Shown piece after piece: positions 19,566 through 27,984 of a stretch of 64,000 bases of DNA (position 1 is the first letter of the stretch; every line of letters starts with the position of its first letter). The notes beneath the pieces are model-generated. The model saw nothing but the letters and a program-made list of their open reading frames with translations, had not been told where the DNA came from and did not search any database. The DNA is from Paenibacillus sp. OV219 (GTDB lineage: Bacteria > Bacillota > Bacilli > Paenibacillales > Paenibacillaceae). Position numbers and translations under genes: made by a program. The DNA is taken from positions 62,001 to 126,000 of the forward strand of contig NZ_FOCJ01000010.1 in assembly GCF_900110075.1 (NCBI RefSeq), written 5' to 3'.

Positions 19566-19589
19566 ACCATAGAATGAGTGGTGTTAATA

Positions 19590-20759
19590 ATGAATGCAAT
19601 GGACCGAGTACCTCTATATCAGAAGATTCAAGATTATATTCGCAGCCTGATCAACTCGGACGGCCTAAAAGAAGGCGATCGCATTCCGACTGAGAAGGAG
19701 CTTATGGAGCGCTTCAATGTCAGTAAAATCACCGTCGTCAATGCACTTACGGGCTTAGCCAATGAAAATGTTATCACGCGCGTGCCAGGAAGAGGGAGCT
19801 TCGTAAGTAGTCAAGCAAGCATGATGAATGCTGTGGAGACGAGGCCTGCTGCAAGCAGTGTGGTGGTTCGTCATGAGCCGGTTGCTCGGGCGAGCACGAA
19901 GTCTGGAATTATAGGGCTCATCTTGCCTTCGATCTATGATTATTTTGCCGCACGGCTGACCCAAGGTGTGCAGAGAGCACTCATGGAGAAGGGCTATCGG
20001 ACAGTCATTATGCTTTCGAACAGTGTGCTCTCGGTTGAGAATGAGGCTATTCAGACGCTAATGGATATGGGTGCGGAAGGGATGCTGATCTTCCCGGTTG
20101 ATGAGGAGCAGTACAATGTCGAGATTCTCGGCATGAAGCTGTCCGGTTATCCATTCATTCTTATTGACCGTTACTTGCCTGGCGTCGAAACACACTACAT
20201 TGCCGGTGACGGCCGTACGGGAGCAGAGCTTGCAGTCGACCATCTATGGGAGCTGGGTCATCGGGAAATTGCGATTTGCTCCGATTCGCCGATTCAGACC
20301 GTGACCGTTCAAGAGCGGATTCAAGGGTACATGGACGCGCTCAAGAAGAAGGGGGCGCTCATTAATCCGGCACATATCATTACGGAGTTCGCGCCGTTCA
20401 ACGAAGTGAAAGAGGATCACCCGCTGTACCGTTATATCCGCAATCGGATGGCGACGGCTTACATTACGCTGAACAGCAAGCTTGGTATGCACGTGTACCG
20501 AATTGCGCGGCAGTGCGGATTATCGGTGCCGGATGACCTATCGCTCGTCAGCTTCGACGATCCGACAGCGATTGCAGAGGATATGAGCATGTTTACGCAT
20601 GTGAAGCAGTACGAGTACGAAATTGGCTACGAGGCAGCGAACAAGCTGATCGAGGTTATCAACGATAAGCAAGCAGCAGAGCACAAGTACAGCAAAGTGA
20701 TTGTTAAACCTGAACTTGTCGTACGGCAGTCGACAGGTCCACTGAAACCTGTGAAGTAA
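19590..20759 (+). CDS. GntR/LacI-type hybrid transcriptional regulator (AraR-like architecture)
   Basis: 389 residues from ATG 19590, with GAGTGG about 8 bases upstream. N-terminal GntR winged helix at ~5-75 (VPLYQKIQDYIRSLI, GDRIPTEKELMERFNVSKITV, RVPGRGSFV). From ~110 to the end is a LacI-like periplasmic-binding-protein domain (GLILPSIYDYFAARLTQGVQ, LIDRYLPGVETHYIAGD, AVDHLWELGHREIAI, SLVSFDDP). This is the AraR arrangement: a sugar binds the large domain and releases DNA. The gene precedes an alpha-mannosidase, so the effector may be a mannose-containing sugar. The shared 18-mer at both promoters supports control of both. Confidence 0.9.
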   Translation: MNAMDRVPLYQKIQDYIRSLINSDGLKEGDRIPTEKELMERFNVSKITVVNALTGLANENVITRVPGRGSFVSSQASMMNAVETRPAASSVVVRHEPVARASTKSGIIGLILPSIYDYFAARLTQGVQRALMEKGYRTVIMLSNSVLSVENEAIQTLMDMGAEGMLIFPVDEEQYNVEILGMKLSGYPFILIDRYLPGVETHYIAGDGRTGAELAVDHLWELGHREIAICSDSPIQTVTVQERIQGYMDALKKKGALINPAHIITEFAPFNEVKEDHPLYRYIRNRMATAYITLNSKLGMHVYRIARQCGLSVPDDLSLVSFDDPTAIAEDMSMFTHVKQYEYEIGYEAANKLIEVINDKQAAEHKYSKVIVKPELVVRQSTGPLKPVK

Positions 20760-20798
20760 GTAGAGTCGGGGCTGAGCAGAGTTCACCCGGGGGCAGAT

Positions 20799-20838
20799 GA
20801 AGAAGAAACTTTCCGAAGGGAGAGCTTCTTCTTTTTTT
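20799..20838 (+). terminator. Rho-independent terminator
   Basis: GAAGAAG...CTTCTTC stem with additional inner pairing (TCC-GAAG-GGA), followed by seven T. It ends the regulator gene. Confidence 0.75.
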
Positions 20839-20852
20839 GCACAATAATAATG

Positions 20853-20909
20853 TTGCGTGTATATTGAATATATATTATATTAAGATTCAAGTTATTGAAA
20901 GCGTTTGCC
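20853..20909 (+). promoter_or_regulatory. Alpha-mannosidase promoter, operator motif and cre-like site
   Basis: TTGCGT (20853-20858), 17-base spacer, TATATT (20876-20881). The 18-mer shared with the GntR-type gene promoter fills the spacer and touches the -10 (20860-20877). Fourteen bases downstream lies TTGAAAGCGTTTGCC (20895-20909), close to the CcpA cre consensus. Sugar-specific repression plus catabolite repression is inferred. Confidence 0.6.
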
Positions 20910-20975
20910 AGCTTAAGCGGACATGGGATGGATGGAATCTTAAACAGTAAATATGCTGCGGAAAAGGGGATTTAG

Positions 20976-23900
20976 ATGCCTTACGAAACCGTTAAATTTG
21001 ATCAGATGCGGTCCATGCTTGGGAGATTGCAGGAATATATATATCACCCAGTAGCTACATTGACGGCTACAGCTTGGGTAACCAAAGAGCCAGTTCCTTA
21101 CGCGGAGCGTATGTCGGGACTGTGTCTGGAAGTGGCTGCAGGTGAGCGGTGGGGCGAGCTTTGGGATTGTGCTTGGTTTCATTTTGCCGGTCAGGTGCCG
21201 ATCGATGCGCGCGGGTCCAAAGTCGTGCTTCTCATTGATGTAAACGGAGAGCTGTGCTTGGTTGATGAGGCGGGTACTCCGGTGCAGGGTCTGACGAACA
21301 TTAATTCGGAGTTCGATTATTCGCTCGGCCTGCCGGGCAAGCGTGTTGTCCACATTAACGAATCGTCCACTGGGGACGAAACGATTGATCTGTGGGGCGA
21401 TGCTGGCTGCAACGACTTGTTTGGCCGGTACCGCAGTGGCACGCTCAAGGAAGCGGTTATCGCGATCTGCCGCGAGAACGTCCGCGAGCTCTACTACGAC
21501 GCGGAAGTGCTGCTGGAAACGGCAGAGAAGCTGCCGCAAGGCTCCGCGCGGAAGGAGAAGATCGCCCGCGCGCTTTATGAAGCGACGCTCATTCTCACGG
21601 AGATGACTGATGAGCGCATCGCGAAGGCGAGCGCCTTGCTTGGCGAACAGCTGGCGAAGCGCGGAGGCGATCCGGTGCTAATGATCAGTGCCGTCGGCCA
21701 TGCACATATTGATTTGGCGTGGCTGTGGCCAATTCGGGAAACGATTCGCAAAGGTGCGCGGACGTTCTCGACTGCGCTGCGGATGATGGAGCGCTATCCG
21801 GATTATATCTTCGGGGCGAGCCAGCCACAGCTCTATGAGTGGGTGAAGACGCACTATCCTGCCCTGTATGAACAGGTTAAGGAGCGTGTGAAGGAAGGGC
21901 GCTGGGAACCGCAAGGCGCGATGTGGGTGGAATCCGACACGAACGTGCCAGGCGGGGAAGCGCTCGTAAGGCAAGTTCTGTATGGCAAGCGATATTTCTT
22001 GCAAGAATTCGGCCAAGAGATGAAGTCGTTGTGGATGCCGGATGTGTTCGGCTACACGGCGAGCTTGCCGCAGATCTTGAGCAAATCCGGCGTCGATTAC
22101 ATGATGACGCAGAAGCTGTCATGGAGCACCTACAACCGTCATCCGCATCACACGTTCATGTGGGAAGGAATCGACGGCTCCAAGGTGCTGACACATATGC
22201 CACCGGAGGACACCTACAACAGTCCGGCTGCGCCGCGTTCAATCGTGAAGGCGGAGGCGGAATATCTCGACAAGAATGTATCTGATCACGCACTCATGCT
22301 GTTCGGTATCGGCGACGGTGGCGGAGGTCCGGGTGAAGAGCACCTGGAGAGACTGGCGCGGGAAAAGAATCTGCTCGGACTCAGTCCGGTCGTACAGGAG
22401 CCTTCCTCGGCATTCTTCGAGAAGCTCGCCGAGAAGCAGGCGAGCTACCAGACATGGCGCGGAGAGCTGTACCTGGAGAAGCATCAAGGAACGCTGACAA
22501 GCCAAGCGCGGAACAAGCGTTATAACCGCAAGTTGGAGAAAGCGCTTCGCGAGCTTGAGTTCGCTGCGGTGCTGGCCCGTACTTTATGCGGCATCGCTTA
22601 TCCGCAGGCAGAGCTGGAGGAAATCTGGAAGGAAGTGCTGTTGTACCAGTTCCATGATATTCTCCCAGGCTCCTCCATTAAGCGGGTGTACGACGAGTCG
22701 CTCGAGCGGTACGCGCTGTTGCTGGAACGGGTGGAAGCTATGGTTGCGGAGAAATATGAAGCGATCGCGCAGCAGCGTACAGCTTCACCGGTTGCGGTCG
22801 CAGCAGTTGCAGCTACGGCATCGGCTCCAGCAGGGGATGTGCTCACCGTATTTAACTCTTTGCCGTGGGAGCGCGCCGAGTGGATCGAGCGTGTAGATGG
22901 AAGCTGGCAGCGTGTTACAGTGCCTGCAATGGGTATCGCATCGGCGGCGGTTTGCAGTGGCGAGACTGAGGCAGCAGCGGAGCAGTCCGCAGCGCCTGCA
23001 ACGCCAATCGTGTGCACCGATCTTCGCGCGATTGAGAATGAGCTTCTGAAGGTTACCTTTGGCGAGGATGGAGCCATTGTTTCCGTATTTGATAAAGTAC
23101 ACAATCGCGAGGTAATCGCAATTGGCGAGCGTGCCAACTTGCTGCAGGTGTACGACGACAAAGGCGATGCGTGGGACTTCCGCCAAGATTACCGCGAGAC
23201 CGGCGGCCTGTCGCTCGCGCTAATCGAGTCGTCATCCTTCGAGTCTGGGCCGACTGCAGGAGTGATCCACTGCTATCAGTATGGCGAGTCCGTTCTCATT
23301 CAGAAGGTTGTGCTGACCGAGGGCAGCCGACGCATTGATTTCGTAACGACCGTCGATTGGAAGGAAGAGGAGAAGATGCTCCGCACCTCCTTCCCGCTAA
23401 ACGTTCGTTCGGAACGCGCCGCATGCGAAATCCAGTTCGGTTATTTGAACCGCCAAACCCACCGCAACACAATGTGGGACTACGCCAAGGACGAAATTTG
23501 CGCGCATCAATATGTCGACCTGTCCGAGCCAGGCTACGGCGCAGCGCTGCTTAACGATTGCAAATACGGCTACCGCGCTGAGGGCAGTACACTCGATCTG
23601 AACCTGCTGCGCAGCCCGAAATATCCGGATCCGGAAGCGGATCAGGCGGAGCATATGTTCACTTACTCGCTCTATCCGCATGCCGGTGATCATGTAGCAG
23701 CCGAGGTTTATAAGCAAGGCTATGAACTGAACGTACCTCTCCGAACTGCAAGTGTCGGAGGTTCGCATGTGCAGCAAGCATCGGCGGCGCAATCCTTCTT
23801 CCAGTCAGCTCACCCAGGCATCATGATTGAAGCGGTGAAGAAGGCGGAAGACAGTGATGCCATTATCGTTCGTCTATACGAGACAAGCGGCGCATCCGTA

Positions 23901-24059
23901 CAATCGGCGCTTCGCGTCGGCCTGCCGCTCCAAGATGCATGGTTGACTGATTTAATGGAAAACAAGCAGGAGCAGTTGGAAGCTACGGATGGCAGCGTAC
24001 CACTCACATTCACGCCATTCGAGATCAAGACTGTAATGCTGACCATTTCAGATAAATGA
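20976..24059 (+). CDS. GH38 alpha-mannosidase
   Basis: 1027 residues, the usual bacterial length. Retaining, zinc-dependent hydrolysis of alpha-mannosides from glycans. Seen: N-terminal ~225-residue beta domain, then the catalytic domain starting at SAVGHAHIDLAWLWP (zinc ligands H and D near 242-246), REGRW-like KEGRWEPQGAMWVESD, nucleophile D356 in LWMPDVFGYT, and the helical-bundle signature YQFHDILPGSS. C-terminal beta domains complete it. No signal peptide, so it is probably cytosolic and acts on imported oligosaccharides. AAAAGGGG is 5 bases before the ATG. An Ala-rich linker (about 605-625, VAVAAVAATASAPAG) is a local oddity. Confidence 0.95.
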   Translation: MPYETVKFDQMRSMLGRLQEYIYHPVATLTATAWVTKEPVPYAERMSGLCLEVAAGERWGELWDCAWFHFAGQVPIDARGSKVVLLIDVNGELCLVDEAGTPVQGLTNINSEFDYSLGLPGKRVVHINESSTGDETIDLWGDAGCNDLFGRYRSGTLKEAVIAICRENVRELYYDAEVLLETAEKLPQGSARKEKIARALYEATLILTEMTDERIAKASALLGEQLAKRGGDPVLMISAVGHAHIDLAWLWPIRETIRKGARTFSTALRMMERYPDYIFGASQPQLYEWVKTHYPALYEQVKERVKEGRWEPQGAMWVESDTNVPGGEALVRQVLYGKRYFLQEFGQEMKSLWMPDVFGYTASLPQILSKSGVDYMMTQKLSWSTYNRHPHHTFMWEGIDGSKVLTHMPPEDTYNSPAAPRSIVKAEAEYLDKNVSDHALMLFGIGDGGGGPGEEHLERLAREKNLLGLSPVVQEPSSAFFEKLAEKQASYQTWRGELYLEKHQGTLTSQARNKRYNRKLEKALRELEFAAVLARTLCGIAYPQAELEEIWKEVLLYQFHDILPGSSIKRVYDESLERYALLLERVEAMVAEKYEAIAQQRTASPVAVAAVAATASAPAGDVLTVFNSLPWERAEWIERVDGSWQRVTVPAMGIASAAVCSGETEAAAEQSAAPATPIVCTDLRAIENELLKVTFGEDGAIVSVFDKVHNREVIAIGERANLLQVYDDKGDAWDFRQDYRETGGLSLALIESSSFESGPTAGVIHCYQYGESVLIQKVVLTEGSRRIDFVTTVDWKEEEKMLRTSFPLNVRSERAACEIQFGYLNRQTHRNTMWDYAKDEICAHQYVDLSEPGYGAALLNDCKYGYRAEGSTLDLNLLRSPKYPDPEADQAEHMFTYSLYPHAGDHVAAEVYKQGYELNVPLRTASVGGSHVQQASAAQSFFQSAHPGIMIEAVKKAEDSDAIIVRLYETSGASVQSALRVGLPLQDAWLTDLMENKQEQLEATDGSVPLTFTPFEIKTVMLTISDK

Positions 24060-24155: not shown

Positions 24156-25091
24156 CTAATCTGAGTAGCGGATGAACGACAGCAGCAGATCCTGCCTGTG
24201 ATCGCCGAAGTTTGCGCCGAACAGGTTAAGTCCGCGACAGTTCGCCGCATCCTCGGCGACTTCGAGACGGACGCGGATTGGCTTGTTGTACTGCAGATCA
24301 AGCGACGCGATGGTCACCTCGGAGGAGGCTGAACCGTTCACCAGGCTGCCTGAAGCGGTAATGCGCCATTCGGTGAGCTCGCCGTATTCAGTGCCGCTCC
24401 ACTTGTCGGGTGTCAGCTTGCCTTTACGATCGCCGAGGTCCCCGGGGCTTGTGAAGACGCCGACTAGCTGGTCGTTGATGAACAGCGAGATGTCCGAAGG
24501 CCAGTCCATCTGGAAGTGCGGCGCCTCCGAGCAGAGCTCCGCGCTGAACCACAGCTCGTCAATCGTTACGCCAGGTGGCATCGGGTTGGCAAAATAATAT
24601 TCGAAATAGCCTGCGCCGGAAAACCAGAGCAGCGATGAATCCACTCGTTCCGGCAAATAGAAGGCGCGCGGATCGTCGACGGAACCGACGTAGGAGCCGT
24701 CCCGTGTCACAATGCCGCAGGTCGGCTGGGTCATACAGTGGGCATACATGCCGATCGGCATATGGAGCTCTTCCGTGCGGTGCAGTCCCTCACCGAGCTT
24801 GACGGGCAACTCGAGCAGGATGGAGCGTCCGGTGACTGAGCATATTTTCTCTCGATTCGCGCCGGTTGTGGACGAGACGAGTTCCACGCTCTCGAGGATT
24901 TGTACATTAATGGAGATTGTCGGCTGCGCTACACCGAGCGCTTCCGCAAGCTGGCTGACGCTCATCGGCTTCTCGCCGAGCGCTTCCAGAATGCGTACCC
25001 GAACGTCACCAGATAACGCCTTTGCCACGTCGACAATGCGGGAGGAGGGGTATCTAATTGTGTCTTGTTTGATTTCGTTCATTGGCTTCAC
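24156..25091 (-). CDS. ArsR-type winged-helix regulator fused to a glycosidase-like C-terminal domain
   Basis: 311 residues, three times the usual ArsR length. Residues ~15-95 are an ArsR wHTH (VAKALSGDVRVRILEALGEKPMSVSQLAEALGV, QPTISINVQILESVELV). Residues ~155-310 form a beta-rich domain that aligns by eye with the last ~150 residues of the divergently encoded GH2 enzyme: ISLFINDQLVGVFTSPGD against IVVSIDGEQVGTFTLPDN, and LNLFGANFGDHRQDLLL against VALYGRNAGRYPLDILV. The domain may bind the sugar that the enzyme acts on. No ArsR metal site is apparent. GTG start at 25091 with GAAGGG upstream; ATG at 25082 is an alternative. Confidence 0.85.
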   Translation of the reverse strand: MKPMNEIKQDTIRYPSSRIVDVAKALSGDVRVRILEALGEKPMSVSQLAEALGVAQPTISINVQILESVELVSSTTGANREKICSVTGRSILLELPVKLGEGLHRTEELHMPIGMYAHCMTQPTCGIVTRDGSYVGSVDDPRAFYLPERVDSSLLWFSGAGYFEYYFANPMPPGVTIDELWFSAELCSEAPHFQMDWPSDISLFINDQLVGVFTSPGDLGDRKGKLTPDKWSGTEYGELTEWRITASGSLVNGSASSEVTIASLDLQYNKPIRVRLEVAEDAANCRGLNLFGANFGDHRQDLLLSFIRYSD

Positions 25092-25105
25092 TTGACCAGC
25101 CCTTC

Positions 25106-25143
25106 AAATCGTTATAGAGGTAGTGTACTCGAAAATCGTTATA
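25106..25143. promoter_or_regulatory. Direct repeats in the divergent ArsR-type/GH2 promoter region
   Basis: AAATCGTTATA occurs at 25106-25116 and again at 25133-25143, 27 bases apart. They lie just upstream of the regulator start and 90-125 bases before the GH2 start, so they are candidate binding sites for the divergent regulator. Confidence 0.4.
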
Positions 25144-25233
25144 TTGTAAAAGTATAATATACATATTGATTAAACTATATAGGGGTGCTAAAATGGGGGC
25201 AAATCCACTTTTAGGGAAGGTTGTGTACTTGAT

Positions 25234-27984
25234 ATGACTGCACAAGCATTAACGTCTGCATTGAAACAAATACCTCGTCCTGAATATCCGCGCCCAGACT
25301 GGCAACGCCAGGATTGGCTGAACTTGAACGGTACATGGGAATTCCGTCTTGATACGACGGAAGTTGCAAGCGGTTACGAGACGCCTACGACCCAATTTGA
25401 CAGTGAAATTATAGTGCCTTTCTCATGGGCAAGCCCACTATCGGGAATTGGCCGCGATGAGCGTGGTACAGGCTGGTATAAGAAGAGTGTTGCTTGGTCG
25501 CCTGCTGAGAGCAATTCGCGTGTCTTCCTGCGCTTCGGTGCGGCTGATTACAGCAGCGAGGTTTGGGTTAACGGTACGCATGTCGGCTCGCACATTGGCG
25601 GCTACGGCGGCTTCGAGTTCGATGTAACGCATGTGTGGCGCAGTGATGCGGAGAACGCGATTATCGTCAGCGCGACTGATTTTGACCATGGCTATCAGGC
25701 ACGCGGGAAGCAAGGTTATGGTGAAATCCGCGGCATTTGGCAGCCGGTCTGGCTGGAGGCGCGTCCGCAATCCTATATTCAATCAGCGAAGTTCGCAACG
25801 TTCATTAATGGCACAATCGGCGTGAAGGCTGTTGTTGTCGCTCATGAAGCGGGAGAAGCTAGCTTGCAATTCAGCTTCGATGGCGGAACTGTGCAGCATA
25901 ACTTCGTAGCTGAGCTGGTAGAGGGCGAGAATGAGGTTAGCACTTCTTTTGTCGTAAGCGATCCGCAGCTGTGGAGTCCTGAGACGCCTTATCTCTATGA
26001 AGGTTCACTGACGCTCAGTCTTGCGGAGAGTGCGGGTGATGTTGTATCGACGTACTTCGGTATTCGCGAGTTCGGGACGGCGCTATTCGGCGATCGTTCG
26101 TACCGCTGGGTTACGCTGAACGGCAAGCCGATATATCTGAACGGTACGCTAGATCAATCGTACCATCAGACTGGTTATTTCACATATCCGACCGATGATG
26201 AGATGCAGGACGAGATTTATTTGCTGAAGCGCCTCGGGCTTAACCTGGTTCGGATTCATATTAAACCGGAGGAGCCGCGCAAGTTGTACTGGGCGGATAA
26301 GCTGGGTATGCTCGTAATGGAGGATATGCCTTGCTTCTGGGGCAATCCAGATGAGACGGCAAGAGCGAATTATGAGAGCGAAGCGAAGGAAATTATTGAG
26401 CGTGATTACAACCATCCGTCGATCTTCTCTTGGGTCATGTTCAATGAAACTTGGGGGCTGAAGACGAATCCGGAGTCACAGGGTCTAACGAATCAATCGC
26501 ATACGCCAAGTGCCTATTTGCCTGAGACTCAGGAGTGGGTCAGAGGAATTTATCACTGGGCAAAAGAGCTTGACCCGACGCGGATCGTCGAAGACAACTC
26601 CCCTTGTAACTTCGACCATGTCGAGACGGATTTGAATACATGGCACTTCTACATTAATGGCTACGAGCAGCTGCGTGAGCATGTGACGGATGTTGTGGGC
26701 AAAACCTATCCGGGCTCAAGCTTCAACTGCATTGGCGGTAACGTTCAGGGAGATGCGCCGCTGATGAACAGCGAGTGCGGCAATGTGTGGGGCTTCTCGA
26801 ACGGTGCTGGCGACAGTGACCTCGCTTGGCATTATTGGTACATGATGAATGAGTTCCGCCGCCATGACAAAATGTGCGGATTTGTCTTTACGGAATTCCG
26901 TGATGTAACAAATGAATTTAACGGCTACTACCGTCTGGACGGCTCGGATAAGCAGTTCGGATATGAAGATCTGGTGCCGGGCATGTCACTCTCAGACCTG
27001 CATACGCCAGACTACATCGTCATTGACGCTCCTCCTTGCCAAACGGTGCAGGCAGGCGAACAAGTATCGGTGTCACTGCTGGCATCCAGCTATTCCGATG
27101 CGTACCATGGTCAACAGCTGACGCTTGCTTGGGAGCTGACGTATGACAACATCGGCGTACGAGTGACGGCTGAGCGCGGATCGGTAGAGCTGGCTTGGAG
27201 CGAGTATGGCGTGAAGCCAATTGAGGCACCGATTGTAGTGAATATGCCGAAACAAGATGCGGTTGCTGTACTAGCAGTTCGTCTTGTGGATGCAGCGGGC
27301 CGCGTGGTAACGCGCAACTTCACGACCTTCGATGTGCGCAGCGGCGCTGCTCACGGCGTCTATGAAGCGGAAGGTCAGTTCGTGCAAGTGCCTGTTACGG
27401 GCTTCGCATCGCACAGCTTCCCGCATCAGTGGAACGCGATACAAGAGGGCAAAACAAACGGTGGCTCGGAAGGCGAGTTTGTGTACGACGTGGAGCTGCC
27501 AAGTGTAGAAGAACAAGGTGCGATCCATCATATCGAGATCGCTTTCGAAGCAAGCGCGAAGCGACTGCTTGCCCGTAATATTGAGGGTTCGCGCGACCGT
27601 CAGCATGGCATCGACTTCATGCATGGCGCGAATGCGAATGTGGAGTACAACAGCAATACGTACTACATGACCGATGATGAGCAGCATCCATCGCACATCG
27701 TTGTGAGCATCGACGGTGAGCAGGTTGGTACGTTCACGCTGCCAGACAATCCGTCCGACAGCCGCGGCGTGCTGTCGTATCAGTATCAAGAGATCTATAA
27801 CAAGCTCGACGAGGCAGGCTCGTACGGTTACCTGTGCCGCATTACGATGCCAAGCCGTATTGCAGCCAAGCTGAACCGCAGCCGCAGCTTCAAGCTCGCA
27901 ATCGCAGCGGACCATGGCGGCGTGGCGCTTTACGGCCGCAATGCAGGGCGCTACCCGCTTGATATTTTGGTGCGGGTGAAGTAG
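25234..27984 (+). CDS. GH2-family glycoside hydrolase
   Basis: 916 residues, no signal peptide. Sugar-binding jelly roll at about 15-190 (WLNLNGTWEFRLD, WYKKSVAW, VWVNGTHVGSHIGGYGGFEFD), immunoglobulin-like domain at ~190-285, TIM barrel at ~290-600. Acid/base E405 is in MFNETWG and the nucleophile is probably E554 in VFTEFRD, both at normal GH2 positions. A C-terminal beta-rich region (~750-915) is shared with the divergent ArsR-type regulator. GH2 includes beta-galactosidases, mannosidases and glucuronidases; the sequence alone does not tell which. Location next to GH38 makes a mannoside or plant glycan likely. AGGGAAGG is 13 bases before the ATG, rather far. Confidence 0.9.
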   Translation: MTAQALTSALKQIPRPEYPRPDWQRQDWLNLNGTWEFRLDTTEVASGYETPTTQFDSEIIVPFSWASPLSGIGRDERGTGWYKKSVAWSPAESNSRVFLRFGAADYSSEVWVNGTHVGSHIGGYGGFEFDVTHVWRSDAENAIIVSATDFDHGYQARGKQGYGEIRGIWQPVWLEARPQSYIQSAKFATFINGTIGVKAVVVAHEAGEASLQFSFDGGTVQHNFVAELVEGENEVSTSFVVSDPQLWSPETPYLYEGSLTLSLAESAGDVVSTYFGIREFGTALFGDRSYRWVTLNGKPIYLNGTLDQSYHQTGYFTYPTDDEMQDEIYLLKRLGLNLVRIHIKPEEPRKLYWADKLGMLVMEDMPCFWGNPDETARANYESEAKEIIERDYNHPSIFSWVMFNETWGLKTNPESQGLTNQSHTPSAYLPETQEWVRGIYHWAKELDPTRIVEDNSPCNFDHVETDLNTWHFYINGYEQLREHVTDVVGKTYPGSSFNCIGGNVQGDAPLMNSECGNVWGFSNGAGDSDLAWHYWYMMNEFRRHDKMCGFVFTEFRDVTNEFNGYYRLDGSDKQFGYEDLVPGMSLSDLHTPDYIVIDAPPCQTVQAGEQVSVSLLASSYSDAYHGQQLTLAWELTYDNIGVRVTAERGSVELAWSEYGVKPIEAPIVVNMPKQDAVAVLAVRLVDAAGRVVTRNFTTFDVRSGAAHGVYEAEGQFVQVPVTGFASHSFPHQWNAIQEGKTNGGSEGEFVYDVELPSVEEQGAIHHIEIAFEASAKRLLARNIEGSRDRQHGIDFMHGANANVEYNSNTYYMTDDEQHPSHIVVSIDGEQVGTFTLPDNPSDSRGVLSYQYQEIYNKLDEAGSYGYLCRITMPSRIAAKLNRSRSFKLAIAADHGGVALYGRNAGRYPLDILVRVK

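Follow-up and report, generated by a model that had tools for sequence, protein, structure and literature searches.

In 2021, ArbA was reported as the first ArsR-type carbohydrate regulator (PMC8579813). According to the accessible parts of that report, ArbA is a predicted repressor that is predicted to regulate abfA, its sites overlap promoter elements or sit in 5′ untranslated regions, and its response to arabinosides or sugars is likewise a prediction. An ArsR-family regulator is also tabled with transporter, glycoside hydrolase (GH) family 43, and GH2 genes in the arabinan cluster of Geobacillus sp. 56T3 (PMC4428132, Table 7, seen as a table entry). In the RsgI anti-sigma factors of Clostridium thermocellum, as presented in the accessible sections of PMC4711584, the sensor is a carbohydrate-binding module or an enzyme-like GH10 domain, and the GH10 domain of RsgI6 is 57% identical to Xyn10D, whose gene appears under sigma-I6 promoters. 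Here, we describe an ArsR-like regulator gene and a divergent GH2 glycosidase gene, spaced by 142 bp, in a 64,000-nucleotide stretch of Paenibacillus sp. OV219 (the window; G000:C12:62001-126000). The closest named relative is Paenibacillus taihuensis, whose regulator is 91% identical, and both open reading frames (ORFs) lie where an earlier note on this DNA had placed them. By sequence comparison, the last ∼145 residues of the regulator are homologous to the last ∼170 residues of the enzyme. We favor, with a probability of roughly 0.6, the reading that the regulator is a local ArbA-type repressor of its own gene and the GH2 gene, with a sugar-sensing C-terminal module, and that the GH2 copy of this module serves as an accessory binding domain.

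When the two single sequences were compared by BLASTP, regulator residues 198 to 304 aligned with GH2 residues 819 to 913 at 26% identity (E = 1e-4). Comparing profile hidden Markov models (HMM-HMM), as the earlier note had proposed for these two regions, gave E values of 4.3e-7, 1.7e-8, 7.9e-8, 2e-10, 2.7e-10, and 4.5e-12 with successive alignments (the last being A5 versus A6), and the significance rises as relatives are added to the profiles. In the run with an E value of 2e-10 (73 versus 49 sequences), the score was 70.6; none of 39 column shuffles scored above 23.4, and reversing the alignment gave 15.5. The N-terminal domain of GH2, used as an HMM-HMM control, gave an E value of 0.07.

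Because the HMM-HMM E values are pairwise, searches of genomes carry more weight. Profile A4, built from GH2 modules without any regulator, was run over 118 whole genomes of the taxonomic family. The top matches were 29 GH2 ORFs (E < 1e-70), and 19 of the next-best 20 non-GH2 matches, the only further ones counted here, were full-length regulators; the 20th was not an ORF but a 62-amino-acid (aa) frame with a stop. In the organism's own genome, the sole other match of the GH2-module search was a paralogous regulator (E = 0.29). Reciprocal searches were also run on 1261 ORFs (1128 distinct) from the collected loci, a set gathered by these same searches rather than at random. There, the regulator-module model found 158 ORFs above 100 bits, among them a lipoprotein-like ORF that is counted twice (110 distinct), and its 64 further matches at E ≤ 1 (63 distinct) were all GH2 ORFs. 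Conversely, the GH2-module model found 71 GH2 ORFs above 100 bits, and the 58 others at E ≤ 1 (42 distinct) were all regulators. Given the low pairwise identity and an N-terminal half that is similar only weakly, the likeness might be put down to chance or to a generic beta-sandwich resemblance; we regard this as extremely improbable, as the further matches of each profile are nearly all of the other kind and far beyond the shuffles. For the C-terminal ∼100 residues, the reciprocal searches and the shuffles contradict it.

The strong part of the match covers regulator residues 195 to 306 and GH2 residues 816 to 915, i.e., the last ∼100 residues, over which the sequence comparisons firmly establish homology; across the full ∼145 residues, homology is likely. 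The N-terminal halves alone reach a nominal HMM-HMM E value of 0.005, with a probability of 7% and a score of 19.6 (best of 60 shuffles, 16.3). Regulator residues 160 to 188 form the weakly matched stretch, and the GH2 copy has ∼35 additional residues between the halves. The earlier note had aligned the last ∼150 residues of each protein by eye, using five anchors. Its extent holds for the regulator, while the GH2 copy is longer, at ∼170 residues. The third to fifth anchors fall inside the strongly matched part, whereas the stretch containing the first two (FEYYFANPMP/FVYDVELPSV and IDELWFSAEL/IHHIEIAFEA) was recovered only in the weak match of the N-terminal halves.

The domains recognized by family models lie outside this module. 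In the regulator, residues 29 to 73 are an ArsR-type winged helix (Pfam HTH_20, 37.7 bits with a cutoff of 27; HTH_5, 37.4 bits with a cutoff of 22), and the ∼200 residues that follow gave no match in Pfam and NCBIfam searches. The protein probably starts at an ATG at position 25082, which gives 308 aa rather than 311, because most aligned orthologues begin at the corresponding ATG. In the 916-aa enzyme, the GH2 N (sugar-binding), middle, and TIM-barrel Pfam domains are all above the cutoff; beyond residue ∼460, there is no Pfam match, and the barrel extends to residue ∼570 (the alignment with 7xyr reaches residue ∼573). No signal peptide is apparent when the sequence is read by eye. The closest solved relatives of the enzyme are 7xyr, called a beta-glucuronidase, and 9j6n, called a beta-D-galactofuranosidase. 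An NE motif is the acid/base motif of GH2; the NETWG of the enzyme aligns with NEGWG of 9j6n, and no such motif of 7xyr is aligned there.

Matches to the last 172 residues of the regulator (E ≤ 0.01) were found in 268 of 295 genomes of the taxonomic family, with one to nine matches per genome; among the matches listed, most are ORFs of 300 to 350 aa. In a sample of the phylum, module-profile matches occur in 15 of 299 genomes, five of them from the same family, and in the class of G433, they occur in 25 of 245 genomes, one of the 25 being the GH2 of G745. By sequence, the long regulator is therefore no odd fusion but a member of a widespread ArsR-type family of ∼310-aa proteins. The earlier note, which took ArsR proteins to be normally ∼100 residues long, overlooked this large family, which includes the evident ArbA of Caldicellulosiruptor. 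The latter comes from a genome (G470) with a contig identical to NC_012036.1 of Caldicellulosiruptor bescii DSM 6725; in this genome, the regulator gene (L169:7730-8713) and a GH51 gene (L169:8919-10436) form a divergent pair. Matched to the published description, as far as it is accessible, by gene position rather than by locus tag, this regulator beside abfA is evidently ArbA. One regulator-module match, at G007:C1:1875085-1875396 (L137), has four internal stops and is apparently a decayed copy.

Metalloregulators carry a metal-ligand cysteine motif in the region of the recognition helix. No such motif was seen in that region of the window's regulator, whose first cysteine is residue 84, and the protein does not reach the NCBIfam HTH_metalloreg cutoff (47.4 bits versus 55). 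On both grounds, we rejected a metal-sensing ArsR protein.

The organism's own genome encodes four regulators of this kind, all with a GH2, GH43, or GH51 gene within 6 kb. One paralogue (L081) is accompanied by transporter-like ORFs and a GH2 of 586 aa without a recognized module, another (L082) by transporter-like ORFs and two GH43 genes, and the third (L083) is divergent from a GH51 gene ("transporter-like" was judged here and below from the look of the sequences). As this 6.1-Mb genome holds only 8 GH43 and 7 GH2 matches (the two families counted), such neighbors for all four regulators are hardly a matter of chance. More widely, among 25 loci hand-picked from the family and phylum matches, 22 of 26 regulators have one of these genes within 6 kb. 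In the sequences compared, regulators of this kind thus tend to adjoin glycoside hydrolase genes, and for this reason, sugar sensing is our best guess for the role of the C-terminal domain.

Near relatives were collected using peptide patterns of the window's regulator, which recovered 42 loci (two of them, L062 and L076, on one contig). At 41 loci, the regulator gene adjoins a divergent GH2 ORF, and at the 42nd (L074), the contig ends at that point. The partner GH2s comprise 38 full-length proteins with the module (913 to 945 aa), a fragment (L078), and two proteins of ∼600 aa in which no module was found (L054 and L076). Flanking genes vary from locus to locus. A second, more distant ArbA-type regulator lies beyond the GH2 gene in L057, L059, L063, L067, and L075, and in L059, L067, and L075, a solute-binding-protein-like ORF follows it.

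The module also occurs in proteins of other architectures. A 710-aa ORF with a lipobox-like start (L132, 178-2310, G505:C151) carries a regulator-type module at residues ∼56 to 270 (182 bits), followed by ∼440 residues; Pfam recognized no winged helix and no family in it. It aligns with regulator residues 107 to 159 as well as with the remainder. In another class, a ∼2300-aa ORF (L214, 3045-10001, G745:C33) has a signal-like start, PA14 and GH2 domains, and then an enzyme-type module; 3-keto-disaccharide hydrolase-like and FIVAR domains were also seen in this ORF, and the enzyme and regulator models alike match its module. Such placements, in a lipoprotein-like protein and a multidomain GH2, are as would be expected of a binding module. 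C-terminal enzyme-type modules are further present in ORFs of 1202, 1204, and 907 aa (L226, L227, and L228, respectively), with GH2 domains confirmed in L226 and L228. No regulator was found in these three stretches, and a search of the L214 genome with the regulator profile recovered nothing but the GH2 itself. A count of only 2 of 299 phylum genomes had suggested that Paenibacillaceae alone possess the enzyme-type module, an idea that was dropped once GH2s with the module were found in another class.

These architectures bear on two other roles for the module. A trigger-enzyme arrangement, in which the module mediates contact between the regulator and GH2 and the free enzyme binds and tunes the repressor, would suit both the conserved gene pairing (41 of 42 loci) and a module common to the two proteins. 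We nevertheless hold it to be quite unlikely, since the GH2 partners of the close regulators in L054 and L076 showed no module, many relatives adjoin GH51 or GH43 genes, and module-bearing GH2s occur without a regulator. A more serious alternative, though still an improbable one, is that the module is a structural or dimerization beta-domain without a sugar-binding role in the regulator and that the effector is sensed elsewhere, for example, by residues 107 to 159 with their PTCG motif. This stretch is strongly conserved among the regulators and lacks a clear GH2 counterpart (only a loose alignment spans it), the lipoprotein-like L132 has no PTCG, and none of the database searches points to sugar binding by the module. 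L132, however, aligns across residues 107 to 159 too, without a recognized winged helix, so that residues 107 to 306 may be one unit, and the module recurs on glycosidases. The PTCG motif itself (regulator residues 123 to 126; 24714-24725, minus strand) has a cysteine that is invariant in 36 of 36 regulators of alignment A1 and a variable threonine position, as PPCG, PSCG, and PYCG also occur.

The relationship of the two copies was examined in a tree of the C-terminal ∼100 residues of 54 sequences (FastTree, midpoint root). The 20 enzyme copies (support, 0.998) stand apart from a clade that joins the 33 regulators with the lipoprotein (0.85); for the regulators by themselves, the support is only 0.47. 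Moreover, the module of the window's regulator is 35 to 42% identical to those of more distant relatives, several of which adjoin GH51 or GH43 genes, compared with ∼26% to that of the neighboring GH2, and regulators occur in other families and classes of the phylum. Adjacency of the genes and similarity of the two modules could have suggested that the end of the neighboring GH2 gene was recently copied into the regulator gene; set against the separate clades, the identities, and the spread of the regulators, this has very little probability, and the tree contradicts it. As enzyme and regulator copies are separated in the tree, the sequences indicate that neither descends from the other at this locus. 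The proposal of the earlier note that the module was taken from the enzyme it controls is not supported, given the same clades and identities, the GH2 partners in which no module was found, and the copy in the lipoprotein-like ORF. Further back, one kind may derive from the other, in either direction, or both may stem from a third protein.

In the intergenic region, a consensus promoter scan found four sites, with 0.7 expected. The sequence ATTGTAAA is present in 36 of 37 intergenic regions, the exception being the fragmentary L078. Regions anchored ungapped on it have a common block, taTATTGTAAAa.tATAATatAcATTG, flanked by more variable promoter spacers. This A+T-rich block lies between the −35 boxes of both divergent promoter-like sites and overlaps them, and the candidate operator has one copy in the organism's genome at ≤3 mismatches. 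The position of the block and its single genomic copy fit the site of a local autorepressor. A genome-wide regulon was rejected, as the block occurs once in the genome; a reversed control pattern gave 4 matches, which means that the search has little power for degenerate sites. The features of the locus are listed in Table 1.

Table 1. Positions of the regulator, enzyme, shared module, and intergenic elements in the window
Feature	Position	Strand	Description and basis
ArbA-type regulator gene	24156-25091	-	311 aa from GTG; ArsR-like winged helix and C-terminal module (ORF, Pfam, orthologue starts)
Winged helix-turn-helix, regulator residues 29-73	24873-25007	-	HTH_20 and HTH_5 above cutoff
Whole conserved C-terminal module of the regulators, residues 107-306	24174-24773	-	Alignment A5; divergent copy in lipoprotein-like ORF L132
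Regulator part common to GH2, residues ∼160-306	24174-24614	-	HMM-HMM: 195-306 strong, 160-188 weak
Promoter-like site of regulator gene, TTTACA-17-TACACT	25122-25150	-	Consensus scan; both hexamers conserved
Candidate operator TATTGTAAAAGTATAATATACATATTG	25142-25168	+	Between two divergent −35 boxes; conserved intergenic block
Promoter-like site of GH2 gene, TTGATT-17-TAAAAT, TG before −10	25166-25194	+	Consensus scan; partly conserved block
GH2 glycosidase gene	25234-27984	+	916 aa; Pfam GH2 domains; closest solved relatives 7xyr, 9j6n
Shared module in GH2, residues ∼746-915	27469-27978	+	HMM-HMM: 816-915 strong

On the other side of the regulator gene, the window encodes a GntR/LacI-type regulator and then a GH38 alpha-mannosidase (19578-24059). 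Within the stretches of the 42 loci, which extend only some kilobases from the gene pair, only L039 and L049, from P. taihuensis and Paenibacillus sp. VTT E-133291, showed ORFs related to the GntR/LacI-type protein.

Sequence analysis establishes the homology of the modules, the two architectures, the conserved gene pair, the conserved intergenic element, and the GH51/GH43/GH2 neighborhood. In the mechanism that we favor, the ArsR-like winged helix, probably as a dimer, would bind the A+T-rich element between the divergent −35 boxes and thereby shut off both the regulator gene and the GH2 gene. The regulator module (residues ∼107 to 306) would act as the sensor for an imported oligosaccharide or glycoside, whose binding would release the DNA. 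The GH2 module would be a distantly related accessory domain, probably carbohydrate binding and directed at the same substrate class, which suggests that regulator and enzyme recognize the same kind of sugar. We infer sugar binding by either copy from the company that the module keeps (glycosidases, transporter-like ORFs, and a lipoprotein-like ORF) and from conserved Trp, Tyr, and Glu columns in its alignment; repression, the operator, dimerization, and the ligand are inferred as well. For the family, the ligand most likely contains an arabinofuranosyl or other furanosyl unit, given that GH51 and GH43 are frequent partners and that the nearest solved GH2s include a galactofuranosidase. We are less sure of a furanosyl ligand at the window's locus.

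Several observations weigh against this mechanism. The case for sugar and DNA binding is built on sequence, and no database match names a carbohydrate binder: the module matches no named carbohydrate-binding module family in Pfam or NCBIfam, and PDB sequence searches with it gave no convincing relative (best E values of 0.11, 0.23, and 0.72). Four of the 26 hand-picked regulators (L149, L150, one of two in L158, and L152) have no GH2, GH43, or GH51 gene in the sequence covered around them; L149, L150, and the regulator in question of L158 adjoin transporter-like ORFs. The background frequency of such genes is known for the organism's own genome only. Conservation of the intergenic block could be due partly to the two −35 boxes within it. 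Only 20 of the 37 regions contain the inverted repeat TGTA-N11-TACA, and the sequences upstream of five other regulators (the three paralogues in the same genome and two Caldicellulosiruptor-type genes) yielded no TGTA-N9..13-TACA.

It is conceivable, though we would not presume it, that the two modules are matched copies of one undescribed carbohydrate-binding module family and that repressor and enzyme compete for the same oligosaccharide. If so, the enzyme would both destroy and titrate the inducer that the repressor reads, with a feedback set by the relative affinities of the two modules, and a new ligand-binding domain family would extend across ArsR-type regulators, cytoplasmic and secreted GH2s, and a surface lipoprotein. 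Under the favored mechanism, the many ∼310-aa "ArsR" proteins of Bacillota that are so far unexplained would share one reading as sugar sensors with a module that glycosidases also use. Ligands of the module could then be tested on the enzyme and the outcome carried over to the regulator, sugar regulators of unknown specificity could be assigned more readily from neighboring genes, and a domain family without a match in our Pfam searches would be defined.

Regulators of the ROK, TrmB, and LacI types also combine a helix-turn-helix with a sugar-binding domain that has enzymes or transport proteins as relatives, but their sensor domains differ, being relatives of kinases or periplasmic binding proteins. 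Titles and abstract openings in the open literature yielded no description of the C-terminal domain studied here, and the accessible parts of PMC12285236, PMC10766802, and PMC4855831 contain nothing bearing on it. The earlier note had thought the design little described; going by the accessible sections of PMC4711584, the RsgI anti-sigma factors provide an earlier example of glycan sensing by an enzyme-like module. These are membrane bound, sense outside the cell, and act by an anti-sigma mechanism, whereas the window's regulator is a cytoplasmic one-component winged-helix protein. The Geobacillus sp. 56T3 regulator, known by its table name only, keeps gene company like that of the paralogues in L081 and L082. 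ArbA belongs to the same family as the window's regulator; the accessible text of PMC8579813 makes no mention of its C-terminal domain. It differs in that its partner is a GH51, while the partner in the window is a GH2 carrying the module, and in that the region ahead of the C. bescii gene yielded no copy of the window's inverted repeat. A near-identical protein from a congener (L125) is 36% identical to the module of the window's regulator, and ArbA, as far as its published description is accessible, resembles that regulator in being a two-part protein encoded divergently from a glycoside hydrolase gene; its conserved intergenic sites at the promoters may have a counterpart in the candidate operator of the window.

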